Below are positions 8,477 to 12,434 of a stretch of 32,967 nucleotides of DNA, piece by piece. The notes under the pieces were generated by a model, which worked only from the letters and a program-made list of their open reading frames with translations, was not told the DNA's origin and made no database searches. This stretch comes from a virus. The position numbers and the translations under genes were made by a program. Each line of letters starts with the position of its first letter. Position 1 is the first letter of the stretch. The stretch lies in the IMG/VR virus record IMGVR_UViG_3300031673_000290, positions 1-32,967 of that record; one strand, 5' to 3'.

Positions 8477-8713
8477 TTATTTTAGACAATTATAAATCAT
8501 ACTTGATAAACTAAAATCTTGAATGTTATTGGGAACGATATAATACACTCCTCTTTTAACTTGCTCGATATGAAATGATTTTATAAAGTGTCTTTGAACT
8601 ACATCCCGGACCTCGTTATATAAATACTTACCTTCTACATCCCTTCTAATTGTCTTTTTATATGGTGGGCGTATATCTGATAAGTATTTATCGAATATCT
8701 GCCAAATATTCAT
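8477..8713 (-). CDS. hypothetical protein (78 aa)
   Basis: GGAAGGAGGTTAATT precedes the ATG at 8713. A helical N-terminus (IWQIFDKYLSDIRPPYKKTI) is followed by alternating charged and hydrophobic residues (RGVYYIVPNNI). Could be a small winged-helix-like DNA-binding protein, but no motif is decisive. Confidence 0.6.
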   Translation of the reverse strand: MNIWQIFDKYLSDIRPPYKKTIRRDVEGKYLYNEVRDVVQRHFIKSFHIEQVKRGVYYIVPNNIQDFSLSSMIYNCLK

Positions 8714-11803: not shown

Positions 11804-12111
11804 TTCCTATAAATCCAAGTGAAGATTTACTTGAAGCCTTTATGAGTTTGCATCATTTCAGTTTATTTTATGATGAACGCAGATTTGATATTTTATTAAT
11901 TGATAATGAGGACAGGAAAGTATACGCATATCCTCAAAGTAAAAGTATAAGAGACGAAAAACCATGGGCTTTAATAATGATACGTCATATTGTTTCACTG
12001 CGAAACATGAAAAAGGATTGGGGAAAAGAAAAGGATTCTCACAAGAGAAGAAAAATATATAGCAAGATGAATTCTATAAAGGGGGAATTAAATAGATATG
12101 AATTGTCCTAA
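11794..12111 (+). CDS. hypothetical protein
   Basis: 105 residues, overlapping the peptidase gene by 10 nt. The first half is a mixed alpha/beta stretch (FDILLIDNEDRKVYAYPQSK) and the last third is strongly basic (KKDWGKEKDSHKRRKIYSKM). It contains one copy of the dispersed palindrome (11992-12006). No known domain recognised. Confidence 0.65.
   Translation: MFIVPINPSEDLLEAFMSLHHFSLFYDERRFDILLIDNEDRKVYAYPQSKSIRDEKPWALIMIRHIVSLRNMKKDWGKEKDSHKRRKIYSKMNSIKGELNRYELS
11992..12006. repeat. dispersed GTTTC/GAAAC palindrome, copy 6 (intragenic)
   Basis: GTTTCACTGCGAAAC, one base different in the loop from copies 1, 4 and 5, encoding part of VSLRNM. Confidence 0.7.
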
Positions 12112-12253
12112 ATGTAAAAAACCAATAGATTCCTTTCACCATTACTTCATCTATGAAGATAAAGTCATCGAAGTATGTAAGGAGTGTTACAGGAAATTAC
12201 AAGTCCATCGAACAAACGTGAAAGTAAAGGGAAAGACGATTGTAATAGATTAG
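12098..12253 (+). CDS. small zinc-ribbon protein (51 aa)
   Basis: GGGGGAA precedes the ATG by about 10 nt. MNCPKCKKPI and VCKECYRK form a two-knuckle zinc ribbon. The C-terminus is basic (VKVKGKTIVID). Its TAG stop shares one base with the 5' end of the RNA gene at 12253. Could bind RNA or DNA; function unknown. Confidence 0.65.
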   Translation: MNCPKCKKPIDSFHHYFIYEDKVIEVCKECYRKLQVHRTNVKVKGKTIVID

Positions 12254-12357
12254 GGGGCATAAAGGTTTCGATAGCAGAATAACACCGCTAAATGGGAGTA
12301 GGGCAATCCCAACAGGTGCGAAAAGCTACACCGGTTCGATTCCCAGTGCCTCCACCA
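12253..12357 (+). ncRNA. tmRNA-like / atypical tRNA-like RNA (about 102 nt plus CCA)
   Basis: The ends pair as a 7-bp acceptor stem: GGGGGCA (12253-12259) with TGCCTCC (12347-12353), then A and an encoded CCA. The 5' end, GGGGGCATAAAGGTTTCGA, resembles the conserved tmRNA start (GGGGGC, AAAGG, TTCGA), and the 3' part has GGTTCGATTCC and GCCTCCACCA as in tmRNA. No anticodon arm is evident. Instead TAGC/GCTA (12272-12275/12325-12328), CACC/GGTG (12283-12286/12315-12318) and TGGGA/TCCCA (12293-12297/12307-12311) stack into one long arm, as tmRNA helix P2 would. The T stem is imperfect. There is no room for the usual pseudoknots and tag ORF. Alternatives: a decayed tmRNA or an odd tRNA. Confidence 0.5.
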
Positions 12358-12359
12358 AA

Positions 12360-12434
12360 GAGTCGATAGTATTAATGGTAGAACGACTGGCTCCAGACCA
12401 GTAGATGTGGGTTCGATTCCTACTCGATTCGCCA
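12360..12434 (+). tRNA. tRNA-Trp (anticodon CCA)
   Basis: Acceptor GAGTCGA (12360-12366) pairs with TCGATTC (12424-12430), discriminator G, encoded CCA at 12432-12434. The anticodon stem ACTGG/CCAGT holds loop CTCCAGA with anticodon CCA at 12393-12395. T arm GTGGG-TTCGATT-CCTAC is good. The D arm (GTAT ... GAAC around TAATGGTA) is weak, with one mismatch. It reads UGG. It starts 2 nt after the previous RNA's CCA, so both are likely processed from one transcript. Confidence 0.85.

Follow-up and report, generated by a model that had tools for sequence, protein, structure and literature searches.

A phage contig carries the two ends of a transfer-messenger RNA (tmRNA) so close together that a tag frame has no room between them, and the locus raises the question of what a tmRNA without its message could be. 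The window, by which we mean the whole stretch of 32,967 bases analysed here, is a virus record whose 603-aa ORF matches phage portal proteins. The element lies on its plus strand and reads, in order, GGGGGCA-TAAAGGTTTCGA-TAGC...GCTA-CACCGG-TTCGATT-CCCAG-TGCCTCC-ACCA. A sequence-only reading of this DNA had described tmRNA-like ends, a 7-bp acceptor stem and an encoded CCA; all are present at 12253-12357 as claimed (the stem is GGGGGCA/TGCCTCC), and the observation of a short RNA with tmRNA ends is confirmed (Table 1). The length of 102 nt given there holds up to A73, and the full RNA measures 105 nt with its CCA. The features of a tRNA-like domain are found, namely an alanine-type acceptor with G3.U70, the GGnUUCGA motif (with the tmRNA-specific GGUUUCGA in the D-loop), the CCA and a T-arm, whose stem is only partly formed.

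Table 1. Features of the mini-tmRNA locus (coordinates of the window).
Feature	Position	Strand	Basis or remark
Small ORF, 51 aa, MNCPKCKK...KTIVID	12098..12253	+	Translation; the last base of its TAG stop is also the first G of the RNA
Tag-less mini-tmRNA, tRNA-like domain only, encoded CCA	12253..12357	+	RF00023 full-length match, held-out R1 score, syntenic L008 and L009
Acceptor 5' strand GGGGGCA	12253..12259	+	Pairs with 12347-12353, including G3.U70 (G3.T70 in DNA)
tmRNA-type D-loop region TAAAGGTTTCGA	12260..12271	+	Fits RF00023 GGnUUCGA
P2 5' strand TAGC	12272..12275	+	Pairs with GCTA 12325-12328; covaries across relatives
P2 loop	12276..12324	+	CACC/GGTG and TGGGA/TCCCA can pair (minimum-energy fold); no tag frame
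P2 3' strand GCTA	12325..12328	+	Covariation, as for the 5' strand
T-arm CACCGG TTCGATT CCCAG	12329..12346	+	Loop intact; two G-C stem pairs kept
Acceptor 3' strand TGCCTCC, discriminator A and encoded CCA	12347..12357	+	Sequence; RF00023 alignment
tRNA-Trp (CCA anticodon)	12360..12434	+	ARAGORN and Rfam; 2 nt downstream of the mini-RNA

The small ORF upstream is probably co-transcribed with the mini-RNA, and the junction between the two, ...GATTAG/GGGGCG, also precedes the copy of a sister phage (L009, see below). No sigma-70-like promoter (plus strand) or terminator-like site was found near the RNA. When the site was compared with the Rfam tmRNA model, cmscan matched RF00023 positions 1-374 at 20.8 bits (E 9.2e-7 for 281 bases) and the whole-contig search gave 29.3 bits (E 6.3e-12), both below the curated gathering score of 47 bits. 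This is the sole RF00023 match on the contig at E <= 0.001 and it spans the full model; the pair of end motifs is expected by chance about 1.6e-13 times in the window. Ordinary tRNAs also give low RF00023 scores, and the raw score alone is thus not decisive: it is the relatives that decide.

Two sister contigs, L008 and L009, were found through a terminase search that was independent of the RNA motif, and their proteins match those of the window in largely conserved order. L008 carries a syntenic RNA of 89 nt that scores 53.7 bits with RF00023, above the cut-off. The syntenic RNA of L009 (81 nt, 21.6 bits) is diverged with small deletions and lies near a tRNA-Trp of its own, a gene absent from the L008 stretch examined. 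For the window-L008 pair, to which the identity figures apply, the RNA ends are about 89% identical (18/20 of the first nucleotides; 21/24); identity is 73% in the conserved ORF next to them and 39-45% in flanking sequence. The acceptor pair A7-U66 of the window is G-C in L008, in L009 and in L004, a contig with no detected shared proteins with the window. The portal protein led to no additional contig covering the RNA, the exact 5' motif had no match in viral contigs, and in a blastn of the window region against phage records the strongest rows were tRNA matches, with no homologue among the matches listed.

We then scanned for both tmRNA ends separated by a short spacer. Tag-less copies were found in 77 other viral contigs and in one Bacteroidetes MAG contig; with the window included and two Microvirga matches left out, the class counts 79 contigs and 58 distinct sequences of 62-137 nt, or 47 after clustering. 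It spans about 30 groups without shared proteins, a group being defined by two or more shared proteins in the stretches examined. The RF00023 cut-off was exceeded by 48 of the 50 records searched, and many copies sit in phage tRNA clusters. Neither the window contig nor these 50 records, which are partial contigs, encodes a recognised SmpB; therefore any SmpB that the RNAs use would be that of the host. Full-length tmRNAs are also present in the collection and are more numerous (at least 120 in one 31-nt length bin). The two Microvirga motif matches were rejected as mini-RNAs, an explanation that covers only these two: they are permuted tmRNAs of one Microvirga lenta genome (L006:2187-2535 and L007:6535-6883) with an identical tag peptide, ANDNVDMGAVRLAA. 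Separately, a second short RF00023 match (38 bits) was seen at L105:1501-1577, in the MAG that holds L005, and may be a tRNA or another mini-tmRNA. When two other mini-RNAs were compared with phage records by blastn, the matches were a full-length tmRNA (Mosig) and att sites (Milly, Validus), and no mini-RNA was seen in the six cultured-phage stretches inspected, cultured phages being sampled by blastn only.

The class is easy to overlook: at the scanned loci ARAGORN identified none of the copies as a mini-RNA, and a few it miscalled. One such call is a 324-nt tmRNA with tag AWDYNPMWVQCSA at L033:5905-6228 and L069:11650-11973 (both minus strand); its 3' end is an 82-nt mini-tmRNA complete alone, and the longer call, which has no GGGG...TTCGA start, looks like an error. 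Another is a tRNA-Glu at L040:8486-8576 (minus strand) that contains a 67-nt mini-tmRNA at 8486-8552 and is likely a misannotation.

The sequence-only reading had seen no room for a tag ORF, and indeed the window RNA has no mRNA-like domain with a tag frame. A short frame, GCT AAA TGG GAG TAG (AKWE), had been suspected to be a chance one. This suspicion was borne out, since alanine-start frames of at least three codons and a stop occur in 11 of the 58 member loops against a mean of 11.06 in shuffled loops, and none has a tag-like end.

We next examined whether the predicted helices are kept across the class, using 40 sequences from which the window, L008 and L009 were excluded. Acceptor, P2 and T-stem positions pair in 94.0% of cells (67.1% when shuffled, 48.9-57.9% when slid), double-change cells number 210 against 60.7 +/- 6.5 in shuffles, and the covariation score is 0.671, compared with 0.07-0.135 for slid controls. 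Because the search pattern had already fixed acceptor pairs 1-4 and the two inner pairs of the T-stem, these count for nothing as covariation evidence, which rests on the other pairs. Both strands of P2 change, with TAGC/GCTA in the window, TAGGA/TCCTA in L008, TTAAGC/GCTTAA in L009 and TAAGG/CCTTA in L004. By the same logic the invariance of G3.U70 and of the loop motifs is not independent evidence in the pattern-found set, because they are part of the pattern; the terminase-found L008 and L009 do provide independent evidence on them. A model built from the 40 other-phage mini-RNAs (R1) gave the three held-out RNAs 66.6 bits (L008), 45.9 bits (window, E about 1.7e-8) and 45.5 bits (L009), compared with 26.7 bits for the tRNA-Trp of the window and 20-33 bits for the inspected cultured-phage stretches and L105. 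Comparison with relatives thus predicts a fold made of the acceptor, a short P2 and the T-arm, with CCA. The one long arm proposed earlier appears only when minimum-energy folding is left unconstrained (z -2.3 to -2.4), and the P2 covariation favours the tRNA-like-domain fold instead.

Two structural variants were observed within the class. Nine related contigs (L024, L036, L042, L045, L048, L050, L055, L063 and L064) have the acceptor GGGGTGG/CACCTCC, in which pairs 5 and 6 are unformed in the standard register; this group may use a shifted acceptor register. In the 78-83-nt members of alignment A1 (e.g. L063, L062 and L024) a small hairpin such as AAAGCC-TGCAA-GGGCA is frequent within the P2 loop; its 5' flank is rich in A, its C/G stem is short, and it may be a shared functional element.

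The window copy itself departs from the class members found here by a P2 loop longer than in most of them and by a damaged T-stem. The latter is 2 nt short on its 5' side (cmscan shows a 2-nt deletion), and among 47 non-redundant members the window alone has its outer T-stem positions unpaired, the other 46 pairing there. An intact 5-bp T-stem, which the window lacks, is usual in the mini-RNA set but lies outside the published definition of the CDS-less standard-form tmRNA. The damage lowers our confidence that this copy works, and other members represent the class better. The change may be a real lesion, an altered fold or an assembly error, three causes that look alike here, and the copy may be decaying, diverged or misassembled. 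That it is a degenerating mini-tmRNA which has ceased to function, regardless of what other members of the class do, is a minority reading that we take seriously; the unique T-stem lesion, the score under the gathering cut-off and the deviant sister RNA of L009 (21.6 bits) all speak for it. However, the RNA ends have stayed closer to L008 than the adjacent ORF and flanks have, acceptor and P2 pairs have changed jointly, and the picture would be no different if the assembly were wrong here or if the lesion had arisen recently. Loss of the paired bases in relatives, which had been named beforehand as the mark of decayed sequence, was not what we saw: they are kept, with compensatory changes.

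What could such an RNA do? A tmRNA of this kind is already known in mycobacteriophage DS6A, which encodes a tRNA-like domain only, in standard order and without a tag frame (PMC4131195, PMC11915505). As PMC4131195 and PMC11915505 summarise the work of Mao et al. 2009, a molecule similar to that of DS6A strongly inhibits tmRNA in E. coli, perhaps by titrating SmpB. The window RNA likewise has tmRNA ends and P2 in one short, tag-less phage molecule, and shares with its DS6A counterpart the phage origin, the standard order and the restriction to the tRNA-like domain; this comparison is by description only, and the window contig looks unrelated. The best reading, to which we give about an even chance, is a phage-encoded tmRNA cut to its tRNA-like domain and acting as a tmRNA/SmpB antagonist. 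It agrees with the earlier proposal, which was a miniature tmRNA or else a decoy acting on SmpB or on alanyl-tRNA synthetase; the evidence favours that proposal, and neither of its two refuting conditions, a tRNA match and loss of the paired bases in relatives, was found. Observed are the sequence, the covariation-supported fold, the recurrence in many phages, and contigs on which neither a tag nor SmpB was found; we infer transcription, processing, charging, SmpB binding and, by analogy with the DS6A-like molecule, inhibition. One transcript would cover the RNA, the small ORF beside it and tRNA-Trp, and host tRNA-processing enzymes would then trim the RNA. It would offer an alanine-type acceptor (G3.U70) together with the D/T elbow of tmRNA, which is recognised by SmpB and EF-Tu. 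Having no resume codon or tag, it could draw SmpB and non-stop ribosomes away from host tmRNA. Were it charged with alanine and delivered, it would take the nascent chain and then stop, the net result being that trans-translation is damped during infection.

Some phages require host tmRNA, so inhibition is not obviously beneficial. The main functional rival, which we consider unlikely, is tag-less rescue: the mini-tmRNA and host SmpB would enter stalled ribosomes and help recycling without a degradation tag, which would rescue phage translation while keeping phage proteins from being proteolysed. Such rescue has been suggested for mitochondrial tmRNAs without a tag frame, which co-occur with targeted SmpB, and two plastid tmRNAs also lack the frame (PMC11915505). 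L008 and L009, found without the use of these features, keep G3.U70 and the encoded CCA, and therefore their predicted chargeability; the location of many copies in tRNA clusters fits as well. Against this rival, the similar molecule, as described in PMC4131195, inhibited tmRNA, and the mini-RNA provides no stop codon for release.

It is very improbable that the window RNA is an aberrant or decayed tRNA. The adjacent tRNA-Trp and the low RF00023 scores of ordinary tRNAs could suggest it, but the tRNA model and ARAGORN, which both detect that tRNA-Trp, gave no match at the mini-RNA site, the D-loop is of the tmRNA-specific type, and R1 separates the site from its neighbour. The Infernal check proposed in the sequence-only reading thus yielded a full-length tmRNA match under the cut-off and no tRNA match with an anticodon arm. 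Hardly any weight is left to an attP fragment of the host ssrA gene in a temperate phage, an arrangement known from mycobacteriophages Validus and Milly, as both RNA ends are present and paired, P2 covaries, the element is flanked by small genes and a tRNA, and inspection by eye of the ORF list of the window showed no integrase next to it. In Validus (L098:401-432) and Milly (L103:401-430), ssrA 3'-end sequence lies closely upstream of the gene for a tyrosine integrase, which fits an attP site within ssrA.

Set against the other tmRNA forms, the window RNA is like the standard one-piece tmRNA (ssrA, RF00023) in its G3.U70 acceptor, GGnUUCGA D-loop, P2, T-loop and encoded CCA, whereas the standard form is about 350 nt long and the window RNA, at about 105, has no tag frame or room for pseudoknots. 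Mitochondrial tmRNA (RF02544) also lacks a tag frame, but is usually a permuted organellar gene, and the window site gave no reported match to RF02544. The acceptor piece of permuted two-piece tmRNA shares the T-arm and CCA; its gene, however, places the CCA end before the 5' piece, while the order in the window is standard and continuous. The 2025 tmRNA database holds nine 'standard, no CDS' sequences in all and names one phage example (PMC11915505). In the open-access literature we found no described phage example besides DS6A, and a later description could have been missed.

The kind is thus already known from DS6A, and what is new is the window member and the breadth of the class. Its 58 distinct sequences in about 30 contig groups point to repeated phage selection for the tRNA-like half without the message half, and the finding of mini-RNAs in a further 77 viral contigs suggests their repeated use by phages to interfere with, or bypass, host ribosome rescue. 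We hold in roughly equal belief and doubt that tag-less tmRNAs are a widespread, recurrent phage RNA class directed at host ribosome rescue, attacking or rewiring it: a counter to trans-translation that consists of RNA and is missed by standard annotation. The breadth of the class makes it testable why phages would interfere with ribosome rescue.
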